From Alcaligenaceae bacterium CGII-47 (GTDB lineage: Bacteria; Pseudomonadota; Gammaproteobacteria; Burkholderiales; Burkholderiaceae_B), in the NCBI GenBank assembly GCA_019166125.1, contig JAHTBO010000010.1:62001-126000 (forward strand): a stretch of DNA of 64,000 bases, in the 5' to 3' direction. The notes beneath the pieces are model-generated. The model searched no databases, was not told the origin of the DNA, and saw nothing but the letters and a program-made list of their open reading frames with translations. Position numbers and translations under genes: made by a program. Positions 14,911 through 64,000 of this stretch are shown here, in pieces (positions within the stretch are counted from its first letter, which is position 1; each line of letters starts with the position of its first letter).

Positions 14911-15258
14911 GTGCCTATCTATGCTTATCGTTGTAGCGCTTGCGGTCATGCGCAGGATGTGTTGCAAAAGATGTCTGATCCGCTGTTGGTAAGCTGCCCG
15001 CAATGCGGCCAGAATACCTATGAAAAACAGGTCACCGCCGCCTCGTTTCGTCTTAAGGGCACCGGCTGGTATGTGACGGACTTTCGCGACGGGGGCAAGC
15101 CCGGTGCGCCGCCACCGAGCTCGGGTGAATCAAGCTCGCATGGGACGACGACAGAAGGCGCATCAGCCGCTGCCTCAGATTCTGTCTCGGCGCCTGCTTC
15201 GTCACCCGCGCCCGCTGCCCCCGCGTCGGCCGCGCCGCCCGCTGCCACAGCCGACTGA
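14911..15258 (+). CDS. FmdB family zinc ribbon protein
   Basis: A 115-residue protein with an N-terminal zinc ribbon (MPIYAYRCSACGHAQDVLQK, then CPQCG) giving a CxxC...CxxC metal site, as in the FmdB putative regulatory family. The start is GTG 14911. The second half is a low-complexity Pro/Ser/Ala tail with no predicted fold. Function is unknown. It lies 18 bases before the DUF502 gene and upstream of aspS, an order often seen in Burkholderiales. Confidence 0.9.
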   Translation: MPIYAYRCSACGHAQDVLQKMSDPLLVSCPQCGQNTYEKQVTAASFRLKGTGWYVTDFRDGGKPGAPPPSSGESSSHGTTTEGASAAASDSVSAPASSPAPAAPASAAPPAATAD

Positions 15259-15276: not shown

Positions 15277-15861
15277 ATGCGTTTCTTTAAGCGTTATTTC
15301 ATTACTGGTCTGCTGATCTGGATCCCGTTGGCGATCACCTTTTGGGTGATCGCCACGCTGATCGGCACCCTCGAGAGCATGGTGCCGGCGTTCTTATCGC
15401 CCCAGGCCTTGTTTGGCCGACGTATCCCGGGCTTTGAATTTGTTCTGGTGCTACTTATTGTGCTGGTCACAGGCATGTTGTGCGCCAATTTTATCGGACG
15501 CGCGCTGCTCGAACGCTGGGAGCGTCTGCTTAGGCGGATTCCGCTGGTGCGCTCAATCTATAATTCGGTCAAACAGGTCAGCGATACCGTGTTTGCCCCG
15601 GGTGGCCAGGCCTTCAGGCAGGCGGTATTGGTGCAGTATCCGCGCCAGGGCGCCTGGACAATCGGATTTCTGACCGGTACCCCCTGCGCCGAGGTGGCGA
15701 CGATTCTAGGGGGCGAGTTTGTAAGTGTCTATGTGCCCACGACACCGAACCCCACGTCGGGCTTCTTCCTTATGATGCCTCGCGTTGACGTACGCGTCCT
15801 CGACATGACGGTCGAAAAGGCCCTGAAATACGTCGTCTCCATGGGTGTGGTGGCACCCTGA
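15277..15861 (+). CDS. DUF502 domain-containing membrane protein
   Basis: A 194-residue protein with two N-terminal transmembrane helices (about residues 8-30 and 53-76) and a soluble C-terminal domain with the family stretch RIPLVRSIYNSVKQVSDTV (about 87-105). DUF502 proteins have no firm function. Conserved position between the FmdB-like gene and aspS suggests co-transcription only. Confidence 0.9.
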   Translation: MRFFKRYFITGLLIWIPLAITFWVIATLIGTLESMVPAFLSPQALFGRRIPGFEFVLVLLIVLVTGMLCANFIGRALLERWERLLRRIPLVRSIYNSVKQVSDTVFAPGGQAFRQAVLVQYPRQGAWTIGFLTGTPCAEVATILGGEFVSVYVPTTPNPTSGFFLMMPRVDVRVLDMTVEKALKYVVSMGVVAP

Positions 15862-15900
15862 TTCTGCCGCTTTGATTATCTATTTACGGAGTCATCCTTG

Positions 15901-17691
15901 ATGCGTACGTGCTATACCGGTGAGGTGTGTAGAACCCATCTCGATCAGACTGTGACCTTGTTCGGTTGGGTTCATCGCCGACGCGACCATGGTGGCGTGA
16001 TCTTCATCGACCTGCGTGATCGCGCGGGCCTGGCGCAGATCGTTGTCGACCCTGATAATGAGCAGGCATTTGCCATCGCCGAGCGCATCCGTAACGAGTA
16101 CTGCGTGCGTATCACGGGATTGGTGCGTCTGCGTCCGCAGGGAACGACCAATGCAGACCTGAAGTCCGGCGAGGTCGAAATTCTGTGCCGCGAGATCGAG
16201 ATCCTGAATGCATCGGTCACCCCCCCCTTCCAGCTCGATGATGATAATTTGTCCGAGACCACGCGCCTGACGCACCGGGTCTTGGATCTGCGCCGCCCCC
16301 AGATGCAAAACAACCTCATGCTGCGCTATCGGGTGACCATGGCGGTACGCCGCTATCTGGACGCGCTGGGGTTCATCGATATCGAGACCCCGACGCTGAC
16401 CAAGAGTACGCCTGAGGGCGCGCGCGACTACCTCGTGCCTTCGCGTGTGAATGCGGGTGAGTTCTTTGCTTTGCCGCAGTCCCCGCAATTATTCAAGCAA
16501 ATGCTGATGGTTGCGGGATTTGATCGCTACTACCAGATTACAAAGTGTTTTCGCGATGAGGATCTGCGCGCTGACCGTCAGCCTGAATTCACGCAGATTG
16601 ATTGCGAGATCTCATTTCTGAATGAGCACGAGATCCGCGACATCTTTGAAGGCATGATCCGTCAGGTCTTTCTAGAGGCAAAGGGCGTCTCGTTGGCCGA
16701 GCCCTTTCCGGTCATGAGTTGGGACGAGGCCATGCGCCGCTTTGGCTCGGATAAACCCGATTTGCGCATTACATTGGAATTTACCGATGTGGCCGATTTG
16801 ATGCGTGAAGTGGATTTCAAGGTGTTTTCCGCACCCGCCAACGATCCTGCCTGCCGTGTGGTGGCCCTGCGTGTGCCCGGTGGGGGCAGCATGCCACGTA
16901 GCGAGATCGACGCCTATACCAAGTTCGTTGCCATTTATGGCGCGCGCGGCCTGGCCTACATCAAGGTCAACGATGCGGCAGCAATCCCGGATGGCTTGCA
17001 GTCTCCCATTGTCAAGAACATCAATACAGAGGCCTTGCGCGCCCTGATCGAGCGCACGGGTGCGCAGAACGGAGATCTGATTTTCTTTGGTGCGGATCGC
17101 ACCAAGATCGTCAATGATGCGATGGGCGCCTTGCGGGTGAAGGTGGGCTTGAGCGAGTTCGGGCGCGAGAATGGCTTGTTTGAGGCAGGCTGGAAGCCCC
17201 TGTGGGTCGTTGATTTTCCGATGTTCGAGTATGACGAGGCCGAAGGCCGCTATTTTGCGGCACATCACCCGTTCACCAGTCCTAAGGATGGTCACGAGGA
17301 TCTTCTTGAAACCGACCCAGGCAAGGCGATTGCCAAGGCCTATGACATGGTGCTTAATGGCTGGGAGATGGGCGGTGGCTCAGAACGTATCCACCAAGCG
17401 GCTGTGCAGACCAAAGTTTTTAAGGCGCTGGGCATCGGTGAAGAAGAGGCCCGAACAAAGTTTGGCTTTTTGCTTGACGCCTTACAATATGGCGCCCCAC
17501 CGCATGGCGGCCTGGCCTTTGGGCTGGATCGGCTGGTGACCATGATGGCTGGTGCGGAATCGATTCGTGACGTGATTGCCTTCCCCAAGACCCAGCGCGC
17601 GCAGTGCCTGCTGACTCAGGCACCTTCGCCGGTCGATGACAAACAATTGCGCGAGCTACATATTCGACTGCGTCAGGTCGAGGCCAAGTAA
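15901..17691 (+). CDS. aspS: Aspartyl-tRNA synthetase, probably non-discriminating (Asp/Asn)
   Basis: A 596-residue class II bacterial-type AspRS with an N-terminal anticodon-binding OB domain, a catalytic core (motif 2 [18 protein letters not shown] about 218-235; motif 3 [13 protein letters not shown] about 538-550) and an inserted GAD domain. In the OB domain the sequence [10 protein letters not shown] has His30, where discriminating enzymes such as that of E. coli have Leu. This His is known from non-discriminating AspRSs that also charge tRNA-Asn, with GatCAB then amidating it. ATG 15901 is used; the adjacent upstream TTG is less likely. Confidence 0.95.
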
Positions 17692-17700
17692 GGCCGCGAC

Positions 17701-18555
17701 GTGTCTGTCATCCGGGTCGTCAGCTACAACATCCATAAGGGCCGCTCCGCCACGGGCAGCCGGGAGTCGCTGGCAGACCTGCGTTTGGGGCTGTATGGTC
17801 TACGTCCGGATTTATTGTTTTTACAAGAAGTGCAGGGACGTAACCAGCAACGTTTCAGCCTGGATGCGCAGCACGAATCGTTGGCCGCTGCCTTGCATAT
17901 GGAGGCCGCCTACGGGCGCAATGCGGTACAAGACGCGACCGATCATGGCAATGCCCTACTGTCGCGCTATCCTATTCTGCATTTCGAGAATCAGGATATC
18001 TCTGACCATAGGATGGAGCAGCGCGGCCTGCTGCATGGCGTGGTGGACGTTGGAGGGGCGGGCGTGCATTGCATCGTCGTCCATTTGGGGCTGCTGGCCA
18101 AAGGGCGTTCGCGCCAGGTTGCAGCATTGGTCGAGCGCATCAAACGCCTCGTCCCCAGCGACGAACCCCTACTGATCGCGGGGGACTTTAATGACTGGGA
18201 CAATCGCCTGGCACCCTTATTCGTCCAGCAGTTGGGTCTGGTCGAGGTCTTTGCCGCAGCGCCCCAAGGCATGGACGAGATCTATCGTCTGCGGCGCACC
18301 GTCGCGCGTCTGCGTCACTCTATGCCCTGGGGGCAGGGCTTTGGCGCCACGAGGTCCTTGGAGCTGGGCGTGGGCGATCATGCTGCCCGCTTGACGCCGC
18401 CACCGCGCACATTCCCCTCGGCTTTTCCATGGTTTAGGCTCGATAGGATCTATCAACGCGGCTTTGCCGTGCGCCGCGCACGCGTTTTGCACGGTGCCCC
18501 GTGGAAAAAGCTCAGCGATCATGCGCCGCTGATCGCCGAGCTGGAACTGCCTTAG
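17701..18555 (+). CDS. Endonuclease/exonuclease/phosphatase (EEP) family protein
   Basis: A 284-residue EEP-fold phosphoesterase. Active-site motifs in order are VVSYNIHKGRS (about 5-15), FLQEVQG (about 40-46, catalytic Glu), GDFNDWDN (about 161-168) and SDHAPLIAEL (near the end, catalytic Asp-His). No signal peptide is evident. The GTG start lies nine bases after the aspS stop, so it is very likely in the aspS operon. The substrate (nucleic acid, phosphoinositide or other phosphodiester) cannot be told. Confidence 0.85.
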   Translation: MSVIRVVSYNIHKGRSATGSRESLADLRLGLYGLRPDLLFLQEVQGRNQQRFSLDAQHESLAAALHMEAAYGRNAVQDATDHGNALLSRYPILHFENQDISDHRMEQRGLLHGVVDVGGAGVHCIVVHLGLLAKGRSRQVAALVERIKRLVPSDEPLLIAGDFNDWDNRLAPLFVQQLGLVEVFAAAPQGMDEIYRLRRTVARLRHSMPWGQGFGATRSLELGVGDHAARLTPPPRTFPSAFPWFRLDRIYQRGFAVRRARVLHGAPWKKLSDHAPLIAELELP

Positions 18556-18691: not shown

Positions 18692-20917
18692 TTGAATAAG
18701 AAATTACCCGCATTTTTGGCGGTGGCGGGCGTTGTTTTGTTGCTGACAGCGTGTGATAGCGGCAGTGACCGGGCTGCCACTGCGCAGATCGATAAACCCA
18801 ATATTCTGTTCGTTATTATGGATGACGTGGGCATCGATCAGATGAGGTCCTTTGGCTATGGGGGGGTTAATGCACCCAAGATGCCCAATATTGATGCCGT
18901 GGCCGATGCAGGGATTCGTTTTCGTAATACCTGGTCAGAGCCCGAGTGTTCTCCGGCGCGCGCCAGTTTCTTTGTTGGCCGCCACCCAACGCGCACAAAT
19001 ATAAACCAGGCATTGGGCCCCAATGACTTGGCGAATGCGCAGCTCTCGCCCTACGAGACCACCGCACCACAGTTGCTGCGTAAGGCTGGCTACGAGAACG
19101 CAATGTTTGGCAAGTTTCACTTGGCTGGCCCGGAAAACAATCAGGCCGGCTTTTCAACCCCCAGTGTTTTTGGCCTGGATCATTTCTACGGTTGGGTCGG
19201 CGGCCTGCCCGAATCCATTGATACGACCGCGGGTGGGGCGGGCACAGTCGGGGATTATCAATGCGGATTCGTCCCCGGTGCCTTGGTCGCCCGCGGTGCG
19301 GCCAGCGGGGCGTGTTACACGCCAGATGGTCAGTGTACGCATATCGTTGGTTCACCCACTGGGGACGCCGCGGGTCTGACCTGTGTGACCCAAGGGGGTG
19401 TCCTTGATCCGGGCCAGATCTGCAAGGTGCCTAAGCCGGCTAGTGTGGATCTGGATCGCTACAACGCCTACTACGTGTCCCCCCTGGTCATCATTCATGA
19501 CGGTCAGGTCGAGGAAGTGCCAAAGAGCGACCTTAGGGCGCGGGGCTATCGCACCACGATCGAGACCGATGCAGCAATTGCGTGGATTAAATCCCGCTCG
19601 GCGGCCAAGCCCTGGATGGCCACCGTTAGCTACACCTCTGCGCATACGCCTTGGCAAACACCGCCGCGTCGGCTTTTGCCTAGCGGGGGCAGTGGCCTGC
19701 ACAATGGCGCAGACTGCACATCGACTGCGGTCGTCCGGGGGATTCAGAATGACATGACTGAGGCGCTGGATACCGAATTCGGCCGCCTGCTCGTGGAAAC
19801 CGGCCTGGCGACACGCAAGGCGGATGGCACCCTGCACTATGATCCCAAGGCCAGCAATACCGTGATTGTGATCGTTGGCGATAACGGAACCTTGGCGCTT
19901 GCGGTCAAGACCCCGTTTGATGCAAGTCGCGCCAAGGGGACAGCCTACCAGACCGGTGTCTGGGTGCCGCTGATTGTTGCGGGCCCCCAGGTGGCCGATC
20001 CGGGACGGGAAGTCGAGCATATGGTCAGCGGGGTCGATCTCTTTGAGCTATTTGGCGAGCTCGCGGGAATTAATGTCCACCAAGCGGTTCCCCGTCCCCT
20101 GGACTCGGTGGGCTTGAAAGCCTATCTGATGAATGCTGGCCAAGCCAGTCAGCGCAAAACAAATTTTACGATTGGTGGCTTGAATCAGCAGGCCAATGGG
20201 GGGCGTAATGGGCCTTGTGTTATTCCATCCAGCGGCGGTGGGGGGACCTGCACGCAGATTCCCACGACCAAGAAGGTCTGTGAGGATAATATGGGCTTCT
20301 GGTGGGGTGAAGGCCACGGCGACATCACGGCTGAGGTTGGCGCTGGTGGGGCGCCATCCTATCCCACCTGCGCGGCGGTGAATCAGGCGCGGTATGACTT
20401 TAATGCCGCTGCGCGGATGTATGACATCCTGCCCGACGAATCTGTGGGGGTGCGTGACGAACGCTACAAACTGGTGCGCAATACGTTTACGCGGTTCTAC
20501 CCGGTTGGCGCCCCCCCCATTCGCAAAGAGATCGAATATGAGCTCTATGAGATCGATCAGGCCAAGCTTGCTCCCAAGCTCGATGAAGTGGGTGACAGCA
20601 AGATCAACGCTGACGGCACGATTCCGGGCGGTGCCGCCCCCTGGGTTGGGCCTGCTTATGCTGATTTGCGAGATCGCCTGGATCGGATGATGAAGGCCGC
20701 CGTGAAGTGCCCTGGCGACGGCAATATAGATGGGGTGGTGGATGCAGAGGATCTCAAGAATTGGTCGCGTATCAATCGTGATTGGGGGAAGTCTAGCGTT
20801 TATGATTTTGTCGGGCCCTCAGATGGCCCCCCAGATGGGATTACCGATGGGTCGGATGCTGTCGTGATCAACCGGAATCTTCAAGTGAACTGCGAGTATC
20901 CTCCTAGTGTTAACTAA
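18692..20917 (+). CDS. Lipoprotein sulfatase with C-terminal dockerin-like tail
   Basis: A 741-residue type I sulfatase that should hydrolyse sulfate esters. A lipoprotein signal peptide ends in LLLTAC, so Cys21 would be lipidated, and Asp22 is at position +2. The metal-site start NILFVIMDDVG is at about 36-46. CSPAR (Cys86-Arg90) is the formylglycine motif in which Cys86 would be oxidised by an FGE. GKFHLAG and a second metal-site region with VIVGDNGT (about 392-399) follow. Residues about 673-741 form two Ca-loop repeats (GDGNIDGVVDAEDL, SDGPPDGITDGSDAVVI) between two Cys residues, as in type I dockerins. The start is TTG 18692 behind a GGGGA ribosome site. The gene overlaps the FGE gene by 11 bases. 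Substrate unknown. Confidence 0.9.
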   Translation: MNKKLPAFLAVAGVVLLLTACDSGSDRAATAQIDKPNILFVIMDDVGIDQMRSFGYGGVNAPKMPNIDAVADAGIRFRNTWSEPECSPARASFFVGRHPTRTNINQALGPNDLANAQLSPYETTAPQLLRKAGYENAMFGKFHLAGPENNQAGFSTPSVFGLDHFYGWVGGLPESIDTTAGGAGTVGDYQCGFVPGALVARGAASGACYTPDGQCTHIVGSPTGDAAGLTCVTQGGVLDPGQICKVPKPASVDLDRYNAYYVSPLVIIHDGQVEEVPKSDLRARGYRTTIETDAAIAWIKSRSAAKPWMATVSYTSAHTPWQTPPRRLLPSGGSGLHNGADCTSTAVVRGIQNDMTEALDTEFGRLLVETGLATRKADGTLHYDPKASNTVIVIVGDNGTLALAVKTPFDASRAKGTAYQTGVWVPLIVAGPQVADPGREVEHMVSGVDLFELFGELAGINVHQAVPRPLDSVGLKAYLMNAGQASQRKTNFTIGGLNQQANGGRNGPCVIPSSGGGGTCTQIPTTKKVCEDNMGFWWGEGHGDITAEVGAGGAPSYPTCAAVNQARYDFNAAARMYDILPDESVGVRDERYKLVRNTFTRFYPVGAPPIRKEIEYELYEIDQAKLAPKLDEVGDSKINADGTIPGGAAPWVGPAYADLRDRLDRMMKAAVKCPGDGNIDGVVDAEDLKNWSRINRDWGKSSVYDFVGPSDGPPDGITDGSDAVVINRNLQVNCEYPPSVN

Positions 20918-22073
20918 GCTTTTTCGTCGCAGGCGGCTGACGGTGGTGGTGATCGCTGGCGTGCTGCTGGCTGCTGCGGGCGCCACCGCTTGGTACCGGG
21001 CCGGGGCGGTCGTGCCGCCGGCTGCGCCGCTTATTATCATCGGCGATGGGACGGCCGCCACCCCTAAGGATATGGCGTGGATTCCTCCGGGTGTTTTTCA
21101 GATGGGCAGCGACAGCAAGCTTGCCCAGCGTAATGAAAAGCCCGCCTATCCGGTACGGGTCGATGGCTTCTGGATGGATGTGACGCACATCACGAATGAT
21201 CAGTTTGCCGAGTTTGTGCGGCAAACGGCGTATCAGACCACGGCAGAGCTCAAGCCCGATTGGGATACGATCCGTGTGCAGTTACCCCCCGGGATTCCCA
21301 AGCCTTCTGATGAGGTGTTGGTGCCGGGTGCCATGGTGTTCGTTGGGACCAGTGCCCCGGTCAATCTATCTGACTACAGCCAGTGGTGGCGCTACGTACC
21401 CGGGGCGAATTGGCGCCATCCTCAGGGGCCAGGCAGCACCATCGAGGGCATGGGCGAGCACCCTGTGGTGCAGGTCAGCTATGCCGATGTCCAGGCCTAT
21501 GCCCAGTGGGCCGGCAAGCGCATGCCGACCGAGGCCGAGTGGGAATATGCCGCGCGCGGCGGTCTGGAGCAGGCCACGTATGTCTGGGGGGATGAACTGA
21601 TGCCCGATGGCAAACCGATGGCTAATTACTGGGATACGGGTCAAGGGACTTTTCCTGTCGTCAGCCCCCAGGCAGGCGGGGCAGCGGGCACACTGCCCGT
21701 CATGTCTTTTCCGGCTAACGGTTATGGCCTGTATGACATGACAGGTAATGCCTGGCAATGGGTGGCAGATCGTTACCGCGTTGACTATTTTGCTCAGCAG
21801 GCCGTGGCTGCGCGATCACAGCCTATTGATAATCCGCTCGGTCCAGAGCAGTCCTATGACCCCTCCGACCCAGGCGTACCTTCGGATGCCCCTAAGCGCG
21901 TCATCCGCGGCGGCTCGTTCCTGTGCAACGAGAGCTACTGTTTAGCGTACCGCCCTAGCGCACGCCAGGCGGCGGACCCCTATAGCCCCATGTCGCATGT
22001 CGGTTTTCGTCTCGTACAAGACGCGCCACCGCCGTCTGATAAGTTCGTGGCCTTGGCCGCGAGTAGGCATTGA
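20907..22073 (+). CDS. Formylglycine-generating enzyme (FGE/SUMF1 family), membrane-anchored
   Basis: A 388-residue protein with an N-terminal basic segment and one membrane helix (RRRRLTVVVIAGVLLAAAGATAW, about 6-28), then an FGE domain. Family motifs are WIPPGVFQMGSD (about 54-65), PTEAEWEYAARGG (about 209-221), GLYDMTGNAWQWV (about 274-286) and the active-site segment GGSFLCNESYC. Its Cys340/Cys345 pair matches the copper-binding CxxxxC pair of aerobic FGEs, and RQAADPYSPMSHVGFRL ends the domain. Both Cys residues argue for a true catalyst and not just a sulfatase-modifying-factor-like protein. The GTG start overlaps the sulfatase end, so the two are translationally coupled. The catalytic domain is predicted to face the periplasm. 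Confidence 0.9.
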   Translation: MLTKLFRRRRLTVVVIAGVLLAAAGATAWYRAGAVVPPAAPLIIIGDGTAATPKDMAWIPPGVFQMGSDSKLAQRNEKPAYPVRVDGFWMDVTHITNDQFAEFVRQTAYQTTAELKPDWDTIRVQLPPGIPKPSDEVLVPGAMVFVGTSAPVNLSDYSQWWRYVPGANWRHPQGPGSTIEGMGEHPVVQVSYADVQAYAQWAGKRMPTEAEWEYAARGGLEQATYVWGDELMPDGKPMANYWDTGQGTFPVVSPQAGGAAGTLPVMSFPANGYGLYDMTGNAWQWVADRYRVDYFAQQAVAARSQPIDNPLGPEQSYDPSDPGVPSDAPKRVIRGGSFLCNESYCLAYRPSARQAADPYSPMSHVGFRLVQDAPPPSDKFVALAASRH

Positions 22074-60042: not shown

Positions 60043-61017
<975 letters not shown>

Positions 61018-61055
61018 AGGATGCAAAACGCCAGATGTGAGGCGGGGTGATCGCT

Positions 61056-62324
61056 ATGCTGCGCGGGCTGAGCTTCAAAAGCGGGTATGTTCGTAATATT
61101 ACTACTCTGATGACAGGTACGGCTCTGGCACAGGCGATCCCTATTGCTATTAGCCCCATTCTGACCCGACTTTATAGCCCAGAAGAGTTTGGTGTATTTG
61201 CATTCTATATGGCTATTGTTTCGATCGCCTCTGTGGCCGTCACGGGAAGGTATGAGATGGCCATTTTATTGCCAAAAAAGGATGGCGATGCATTTAACGT
61301 CATGGCATTGGCGATGGGATTGAGTTGCGTCATCAGCGGGTTGCTGTTCTTGCTTGTGGTATTGTTCAATCGCTTCCTTTCAGAACTTCTGGGGATCCCT
61401 GATTTATCTCGTTGGCTGTATTGGGTGCCGGCGTCTACGTTATTGGTCGGTGTCTATCAAAGCTTAAATTATTGGAGCAATCGAAAAGGACACTATAGGC
61501 GTCTGGCGGCGAGCCGAGTGACGCAAAGTGGTAGTTCCGCCTTGGTGCAGCTTAGTGGAGGATATGCGGGCTCGGGCGCCACAGGCCTCGTGGGAGGACA
61601 ATTGATAGGCCAGGCGCTGTCTAGTGCCGTTCTGGGGTGGTTGATCTATAAGGACGATCATACAAAATTAAAAAAATTAAAAAAATTGCGTTTAATGGTG
61701 ATGGCTAGAAGATATTCTGCTTTTCCCAAATACCTAATTGCTGCGCATGGTATCAATATTGCTTCCGCGCAAATGCCTGTTATTCTCCTAGGCATGCTGT
61801 TTACTACGGCCACTGCTGGGTTTTATACATTGACCCAACGTGCCATGGGCGCACCCATGTCCCTGATTGCAGGCGCAATCGGGGATGTTTTTAGGCAAGA
61901 AGCGAGCTATTCTTACGTTCAACATGGAAACTGCAAAGAAATCTATCAGAGAACATTCAAAAGGTTGGTAGTGATTTCTGCTCCCCTCAGTATCTTGTTT
62001 TTCTTTTCTGCTCCTTGGGTTTTCGGCTTCGTTTTCGGGCCTGCATGGCGTGTTTCTGGTGAATATGCACAGATTTTGACGCCTGTACTATTTTTCGGCT
62101 TTGTGGTGAGTCCGTTGAGCGCGATGTTCATGATCGCAGAAAAGCAACGGCTGGACTTGGCTTGGCAGGTGTGCTTCTTCGTTGCCGCTGGCGGATCATT
62201 TTTTATTGGACACTTCTTTTCCAGCGCCAAAGTCTCTTTGGCGGCTTTTTCCTTCGCCTATAGTGTTATGCAGGTCGTCAGTGGTCTGATTTCTTATAGG
62301 CTTGCGGCTGGAAAATCTTTTTGA
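61056..62324 (+). CDS. Wzx-like O-antigen flippase (oligosaccharide flippase family)
   Basis: A roughly 422-residue protein with 12 predicted helices, starting LTGTALAQ-like (LMTGTALAQAIPIAISPILTRLYSPEEFGVFAFYMAI), typical of the polysaccharide exporter family that flips lipid-linked O-units across the inner membrane. ATG 61056 sits behind GGCGGGG and is preferred to GTG 61047. From here base composition becomes noticeably AT-rich. A lysine/leucine repeat with two A7 runs lies near 61666-61685. Confidence 0.87.
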   Translation: MLRGLSFKSGYVRNITTLMTGTALAQAIPIAISPILTRLYSPEEFGVFAFYMAIVSIASVAVTGRYEMAILLPKKDGDAFNVMALAMGLSCVISGLLFLLVVLFNRFLSELLGIPDLSRWLYWVPASTLLVGVYQSLNYWSNRKGHYRRLAASRVTQSGSSALVQLSGGYAGSGATGLVGGQLIGQALSSAVLGWLIYKDDHTKLKKLKKLRLMVMARRYSAFPKYLIAAHGINIASAQMPVILLGMLFTTATAGFYTLTQRAMGAPMSLIAGAIGDVFRQEASYSYVQHGNCKEIYQRTFKRLVVISAPLSILFFFSAPWVFGFVFGPAWRVSGEYAQILTPVLFFGFVVSPLSAMFMIAEKQRLDLAWQVCFFVAAGGSFFIGHFFSSAKVSLAAFSFAYSVMQVVSGLISYRLAAGKSF

Positions 62325-62327
62325 GAA

Positions 62328-63485
62328 ATGAAATTGCAAAAAATTCTGCACCTATCGCATACAGATATACGCGCTGATTCGCGCATCCTGAAGGAAATGG
62401 GTGCTTTGGAGGTATCTGAAAAATTCGAACTGATGGGTGTCGGAGTGAAATTGGAAGAAGGGGCGTCTTCCAGCAAAAAAAATCTGAAAGCCAAGATCGT
62501 ATCTGTCCTATTGTTCAGTAAATCACTATCCTTTTTGCCCAAGCCGATTCGTTATGGATTGAATATGGCTGAGCTCACTATTCGGTTGGTTTATTATGGG
62601 CTGAAATTCAAGCCTGTAGCAGTTCATTGCCACGATACTTTTGCCCTCCCGGCAGGAGTACTGCTTAAGATGGCATTGGGATGCAGACTGATCTATGATG
62701 CGCATGAACTGGAATCAGACAAAAATGGGCAAACGCCTGCTCTTTCCAAAGCTACGCTAATAATAGAAAAATGGGCATGGAAGAGAATCGACCTGTTGAT
62801 ATCCGTGAGCGATTCTATCAATGATTGGTATATCGATAATTTGGGATTAAAGCCGCATTTATTAATATTGAATTCCCCAGAAATAGCTAAAGATGTGGAT
62901 GAAAACGCAGATGGTGATATAGGAGAAAAATATTTCCACTCTCTTTATGGGATCCCATTAGAAAAGAAAGTATTTATCTATATAGGAATATTGAGCGAGG
63001 GGAGAGGCATTGAACTATGTTTGCAGGTTTTCGCGCCAGAAGCTGTAAACGCCCATGTTGTTTTTATGGGGTATGGTCCTCTGAAGCCTAAGATTGATTC
63101 CTTCGCTTTAAAGTACTCCAATATTCATCTGCATAAGCCCATCCCGCACGAACAGGTTGTCGCCATTGTAAAACATGCAGATGTAGGGCTATGTTTTGTG
63201 GAAAATGTTTCACTAAGCGATTACTATTCCCTGCCTAATAAGCTGTTTGAATATGCTTTCTCAGGACTTCCGGTCTTGGCCTCCGACTTTCCGGAGATAG
63301 GTAAGGTTGTGCGCCAATATTCGCTCGGATTCTGCAGTGCGGTTGATCTGGATAGCATGAAGAAAATGATATCCAATATCGTGGATGGCTCTGTTCCGAT
63401 TGCGTCTGGTGATTTCAGTGAACTGGGCTGGGAAGCACAGGCGGTAAGGTTGAATGAGGCATATGATCGCTTGCTTGAGTTGTGA
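62328..63485 (+). CDS. Glycosyltransferase family 4 (O-antigen)
   Basis: A 385-residue GT-B glycosyltransferase. N-terminal half: LHLSHTDIRADSRILKEM and VHCHDTFALPAGVLLKMALGCRLIYDAHELESD (about 98-130). C-terminal half: FIYIGILSEGRGIELCLQVF (about 218-237) and the GT4-type ENVSLSDYYSLPNKLFEYAFSGLPVLAS. AT-rich like its neighbours. The ATG is four bases after the flippase stop. Sugar specificity unknown. Confidence 0.85.
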   Translation: MKLQKILHLSHTDIRADSRILKEMGALEVSEKFELMGVGVKLEEGASSSKKNLKAKIVSVLLFSKSLSFLPKPIRYGLNMAELTIRLVYYGLKFKPVAVHCHDTFALPAGVLLKMALGCRLIYDAHELESDKNGQTPALSKATLIIEKWAWKRIDLLISVSDSINDWYIDNLGLKPHLLILNSPEIAKDVDENADGDIGEKYFHSLYGIPLEKKVFIYIGILSEGRGIELCLQVFAPEAVNAHVVFMGYGPLKPKIDSFALKYSNIHLHKPIPHEQVVAIVKHADVGLCFVENVSLSDYYSLPNKLFEYAFSGLPVLASDFPEIGKVVRQYSLGFCSAVDLDSMKKMISNIVDGSVPIASGDFSELGWEAQAVRLNEAYDRLLEL

Positions 63486-63527
63486 TGTGCACATCTGATA
63501 AGTATTGATTTTAATTGGAACAATGGA

Positions 63528-64000
63528 ATGTGTGGAATTTTTGGAATTATTTCTAATAAAGAAATCTCTTTGACGGATTTAAGAGCCCTGGCAACGCATT
63601 CCCAGCAGCGCGGAATGGACTCTAGTGGCCTATTCTTTGCAGAGTCTGATGGCAGGTATGGCATGTATCGGGCGGATACTGCCGTGACTAGACTGCTTGC
63701 AAAAGCCAATCTAGGCAAGTCAGTATTCGCCATGGGGCATAGCCGCCTGATCACTAACGGACTTTCGGATAATCAGCCTATTTACAGAGATTCCGTCTGT
63801 TTGATCCATAATGGGATTATTGTAAATCACAATGATTTGTGGATTAAAACTCAGAAGGCACGCAAGCAGAAAATCGATACTGAGATTATTGCGGCAATCC
63901 TCGCAGAGGATCTGGAGAACGGTGTCCCGGTGGAACAAGCTTATAAGCGTGTGCTAGATTTATGCAAAGGCATAGTTGCGTGTGCTGTTGCGCTTCCCAA
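63528..64000 (+). CDS. Class II glutamine amidotransferase / asparagine synthase-like protein (partial)
   Basis: The first 157 codons, running off the window. It starts MCGIFGI, so Cys2 is the N-terminal nucleophile. SQQRGMDSSGLFF (about 28-40) resembles the RGxDSxG motif of GlmS/PurF-like amidotransferases, and GHSRLITNG and LIHNGIIVNH follow. In O-antigen clusters such enzymes (for example WbmI) amidate the carboxyl of uronic-acid sugars, which would suit the WlbABC product. The downstream domain is not visible, so an asparagine-synthase type cannot be excluded. Confidence 0.8.
   Translation, partial: MCGIFGIISNKEISLTDLRALATHSQQRGMDSSGLFFAESDGRYGMYRADTAVTRLLAKANLGKSVFAMGHSRLITNGLSDNQPIYRDSVCLIHNGIIVNHNDLWIKTQKARKQKIDTEIIAAILAEDLENGVPVEQAYKRVLDLCKGIVACAVALP

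Follow-up and report, generated by a model that had tools for sequence, protein, structure and literature searches.

Does the bacterium carrying this locus make asparaginyl-tRNA directly, or does it depend on amidation of a mischarged precursor? The window (the whole stretch of 64,000 nucleotides that was analysed) contains an aspS gene, and a sequence-only reading had proposed, from a histidine at residue 30 of the product, that tRNA-Asn is charged as Asp-tRNA-Asn and then converted by the amidotransferase GatCAB, so that Asn-tRNA would depend on amidation. The gene, its neighbours and the two codons of interest are as follows.

14911..15258, + strand: zinc-ribbon protein (Zn_ribbon_8), upstream neighbour of aspS (Pfam)
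15277..15861, + strand: DUF502 protein, upstream neighbour of aspS (Pfam)
15901..17691, + strand: aspS, bacterial-type aspartyl-tRNA synthetase (AspRS) of 596 aa, putatively non-discriminating (translation, profiles, Pfam)
15988..15990, + strand: His30 codon, in RRRDHGG of the OB-fold anticodon-binding domain (translation, alignments)
16141..16143, + strand: Gly81 codon, in RLRPQG, which begins at residue 76 (alignments)
17701..18555, + strand: endonuclease/exonuclease/phosphatase family protein, downstream neighbour of aspS (Pfam)

An intact, bacterial-type aspartyl-tRNA synthetase

The frame at 15901-17691 (+) is intact, translating to 596 amino acids and a stop with no internal stops; a TTG at 15898, one codon 5', is a possible alternative start. 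The product scores 870.7 bits against PRK00476 (cut-off 443) and 794.5 bits against the TIGR00459 aspS_bact model (cut-off 373.85), which identifies it as a bacterial-type AspRS. Its Pfam domains have the corresponding architecture, with an OB-fold anticodon-binding domain at the N-terminus, a class II core and a GAD insertion (PF02938, residues 310-408, 88.5 bits). According to the available part of PMC4206432, it is the GAD insertion that distinguishes bacterial-type from archaeal-type enzymes.

The gene lies in a run of plus-strand genes in the order Na+/H+ antiporter, zinc-ribbon protein, DUF502 protein, aspS and endonuclease/exonuclease/phosphatase protein, an order that recurs in Parapusillimonas granuli (L037) when frames are compared by eye. 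Scans for promoters (2, shuffle mean 1.8) and for terminators (4, shuffle mean 5.0) returned no excess over shuffled sequence. Further downstream, 18692-22073 (+) encodes a sulfatase (Pfam Sulfatase) in which a CSPAR motif, a lipobox and C-terminal, Asp-rich, dockerin-like repeats are visible by eye, the repeats being unmatched by Pfam; its frame shares 11 bases with the next, which encodes a sulfatase-modifying-factor (FGE-sulfatase) protein.

Two residues of non-discriminating enzymes

Translation and alignments bear out the placement of His30 within RRRDHGG. The best solved relative of the enzyme is 4wj3, annotated 'Aspartate--tRNA(Asp/Asn) ligase'. His30 aligns with His in 4wj3 and with Leu in 1eqr, 1c0a and 1efw, and Gly81 aligns with Gly in 4wj3, with Lys in 1eqr and 1c0a, and with a gap in 1efw. 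We take 4wj3 (and 4wj4) to be the Pseudomonas aeruginosa enzyme, 1eqr and 1c0a to be that of Escherichia coli, and 1efw that of Thermus thermophilus. Bernard and colleagues are said to have mutated both residues in the P. aeruginosa AspRS in 2006, with an effect on tRNA-Asn recognition. The protein thus carries the His and Gly expected of a non-discriminating AspRS, as in P. aeruginosa, and His30 alone is insufficient for that assignment.

Among the best 80 of 590 relatives found, the closest of which are from Alcaligenaceae (identity up to 88%), both His30 and Gly81 are present in 80/80, so the pair is common to the surrounding lineage rather than a chance occurrence. Residue 30 is outperformed as a separator of the groups by several other positions, for example 82, 89, 120, 125 and 127; phylogeny is the likelier cause, because the comparison set of 80 consists entirely of close relatives.

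Residue 30 across the class

How much weight can His30 bear as a marker? In a sample of 357 genomes of the class, with asnS and gatB called at E up to 1e-60, profile searches found asnS in 51 and gatB in 338. AspRS was sought in 59 genomes, including all 51 with asnS, in two batches that yielded a locus in 27/30 and 29/30 cases (G147 was in both); none was obtained from G147, which is asnS-positive, or from G002 and G003. AspRS could be read in 50 asnS-positive genomes, and 41 of these carry His at residue 30. The reasoning of the sequence-only reading is in this respect weaker than its conclusion: His30 by itself is no proof of dependence on amidation, and the His marker alone should not be used to infer a missing asnS.

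Residue 30 is instead associated with gatB. In genomes with both asnS and gatB it was His in 37/38 and Leu in one (G044), compared with His in 4/12, Leu in 5/12 and Gln in 3/12 of the asnS-positive genomes in which gatB was undetected (Fisher p = 7.6e-6, uncorrected for relatedness). Seven genomes had neither gene detected, and the six that were read (G326 was left out) all have His30; draft gaps possibly lie behind these. We consider the chances even that residue 30 tracks the presence of GatCAB and not a lack of AsnRS, with His30 marking the two-step route even beside an AsnRS. His30 is better taken as a marker of GatCAB co-occurrence, one that is neither sufficient nor strictly required, since some genomes without gatB have His and one with both genes has Leu.

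The four His30 genomes in which asnS is present and gatB undetected fall into two families. G311 belongs to family f74, whose other three sampled members have gatB, so its lack of the gene is likely an assembly gap. The remaining three (G073, G247 and G312; loci L164, L165 and L163) belong to family f77, in which His30 occurs in 3/4 sampled members with AsnRS present and GatCAB undetected; in this lineage the specificity of AspRS would need another source, either different residues of the enzyme or an altered tRNA-Asn. These three genomes are 1.0-1.9 Mb, and their His30 sits in an altered context, RxRHHGK; G172, also of f77, has Leu at this position.

As a proxy for residue 30, DNA patterns matching either the His or the Leu form were also run over all 357 genomes, and gave rough numbers: the His pattern matched in 272/357 and the Leu pattern in 4/357. 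Among the 299 asnS-negative, gatB-positive genomes, which were covered by this rough pattern only, apart from G002 and G003 where an AspRS locus was sought, the His pattern matched in 238 (272 less 27 asnS-positive and 7 with neither gene, sorted by eye). The proxy both misses and over-counts. The His pattern missed 15 His-type AspRS of asnS-positive genomes and matched G219, where the AspRS found has Gln, and the reversed control of the Leu pattern gave one match (G238) against the four real ones. It was dropped, and our conclusions rest on AspRS sequences read directly.

Complete GatCAB and no detectable AsnRS

The assembly that carries aspS comprises 3,447,753 bases in 41 contigs and is 99.99% complete, and a profile search of all of it returned no asnS above cut-off. 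Matches below the cut-off fell in two genes: AspRS itself, hit in two pieces, and a second on contig C1; the latter was ruled out as an AsnRS, being LysRS (726.3 bits, cut-off 468). Sampled genomes of the order, this one and four others, have asnS in 0/5 and gatB in 5/5. The genes for the amidotransferase are all present, as an intact operon on a contig other than that of aspS.

C13:176966-180258: gatC (102 aa), gatA (507 aa) and gatB (485 aa), co-directional and nearly gapless (profiles)

GatB scores 552.6 bits, above the TIGR00133 cut-off, and GatA 521.5 bits against a cut-off of 481.1 (TIGR00132). GatC passes TIGR00135 at about 78 bits (77.6-78.6, cut-off 47.1) and falls under the cut-off of 97 of the narrower PRK00034.3-4 model, with 40.4 bits. 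Moreover, the genome encodes glnS (684.7 bits, cut-off 425.8). The sequence-only reading had named asnS and gatCAB as the genes to look for; the first was not found in this assembly and the second is complete.

The genome has 43 tRNA genes, and ARAGORN, run on loci covering all 43, identified a single tRNA-Asn(GUU), a single tRNA-Asp and a single tRNA-Gln. Their end pairs read U1-A72, G1-C72 and U1-A72, respectively. According to PMC9976931, the determinant by which Asp-tRNA-Asn is selected for amidation is U1-A72, and tRNA-Asp carries G1-C72 and U20a as antideterminants. The end pairs of tRNA-Asn and tRNA-Asp are therefore those expected for the indirect pathway.

How Asn-tRNA is probably made

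With no asnS found, and with gatCAB, glnS and a U1-A72 tRNA-Asn in the genome, Asn-tRNA is expected to arise by amidation of Asp-tRNA-Asn. The AspRS, which besides LysRS is the only match to the asnS profile, would aspartylate tRNA-Asp and also the one tRNA-Asn. The amidotransferase GatCAB, whose genes lie elsewhere in the genome, would then convert Asp-tRNA-Asn to Asn-tRNA-Asn, reading U1-A72 of tRNA-Asn and being kept off tRNA-Asp by G1-C72, while GlnRS could supply Gln-tRNA directly. We regard this scheme as very nearly certain on the strength of the gene complement, the two AspRS residues and the tRNA end pairs, from which we infer the relaxed tRNA specificity of AspRS, the amidation step and any transamidosome. 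The conclusion of the sequence-only reading, that Asn-tRNA depends on amidation, gains support from the lack of a detectable asnS, the complete gatCAB and the U1-A72 pair.

Two other explanations have to be weighed, both very improbable. The AspRS could be discriminating, with Asn-tRNA supplied by an AsnRS that is absent from the assembly. The division of the genome into 41 contigs leaves a slender chance that an asnS was overlooked, and a His-type AspRS does accompany asnS in the 4/12 class genomes lacking a detected gatB. Against this stand the 99.99% completeness, the restriction of asnS-profile matches to AspRS and LysRS, and the asnS-negative, gatB-positive state of the four other sampled genomes of the order; GatCAB would, in addition, be left without an obvious role, since GlnRS is present. 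A second explanation, that GatCAB works chiefly for Gln-tRNA and that the His-type AspRS is left over in this lineage as a relic, draws on the U1-A72 pair of tRNA-Gln, through which GatCAB could act on Glu-tRNA-Gln, yet it is scarcely credible given a full glnS and a search that turned up no AsnRS for charging tRNA-Asn.

Since the genome has a GlnRS and gave no AsnRS, it is for Asn-tRNA that GatCAB would be needed. Aspartylation by AspRS followed by amidation is the most likely Asn-tRNA route of this organism, and gatCAB is predicted to be essential there.

Two proteins of the genome resemble asparagine synthetase and may make free asparagine.

G000:C1:312503-314182 and G000:C24:191915-193360: two AsnB-like glutamine amidotransferases (profiles)

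They score 458.7 and 284.7 bits against asn_synth_AEB, both above its cut-off of 267.1, and 265.8 and 204.8 bits against PRK09431 asnB, both under the cut-off of 499. One has its top score, 571.8, with the XrtA/PEP-CTERM amidotransferase model, below the cut-off of 816.9. We rejected them as relevant to tRNA charging, because free asparagine is not chargeable without AsnRS. One of the pair, of 628 aa and 3' of an allantoicase-like frame (by eye), resembles the XrtA/PEP-CTERM amidotransferase, and the other is a 510-aa form. An apparent polysaccharide cluster occupies 60064-64000 (+), with oxidoreductase-like, flippase-like and glycosyltransferase-like frames named by eye; its last frame begins MCGIFGI, leaves the window and matches asn_synth_AEB weakly.

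Comparison with known systems

The arrangement of AspRS and GatCAB found here is already well known, ordinary and common, with nothing novel in it. Akochy and colleagues reportedly described, in 2004, direct glutaminyl-tRNA and indirect asparaginyl-tRNA biosynthesis in P. aeruginosa, the same combination as that predicted here. The likeness extends to the His and Gly at the aligned AspRS positions (4wj3). In the available part of PMC6523644, which cites that 2004 paper, P. aeruginosa is described as having no AsnRS and as requiring a non-discriminating AspRS and the amidotransferase. The same partial source gives it no asparagine synthetase, in contrast to the two AsnB-like proteins above the asn_synth_AEB cut-off here (PMC6523644). 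It also describes the bacterial-type AspRS of E. coli and T. thermophilus as discriminating; these enzymes (1eqr/1c0a and 1efw) can be aligned with the present one over almost the whole length, but differ in having Leu at 30 and, at 81, Lys in 1eqr/1c0a and a gap in 1efw.

Legionella pneumophila and Bdellovibrio bacteriovorus, as described in the accessible portion of PMC4206432, have a lone AspRS that charges tRNA-Asn in genomes with GatCAB; unlike this genome, both additionally have AsnRS, a combination that agrees with residue 30 tracking GatCAB. The same source reports that these two enzymes favour tRNA-Asp about 1.6-3 fold, and gives a preference of 500-fold or more for discriminating AspRS. 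The present genome falls into a class of the 547-genus survey, 'GlnRS, GatCAB', for which Table 2, within the available text, lists 98 genera, with a U1-A72 tRNA-Asn in 98/98, AsnB only in 57 and neither synthetase in 41 (PMC4206432). The gene complement of that class, as far as the available text of the survey describes it, is the same as here, with no difference in the features tested.
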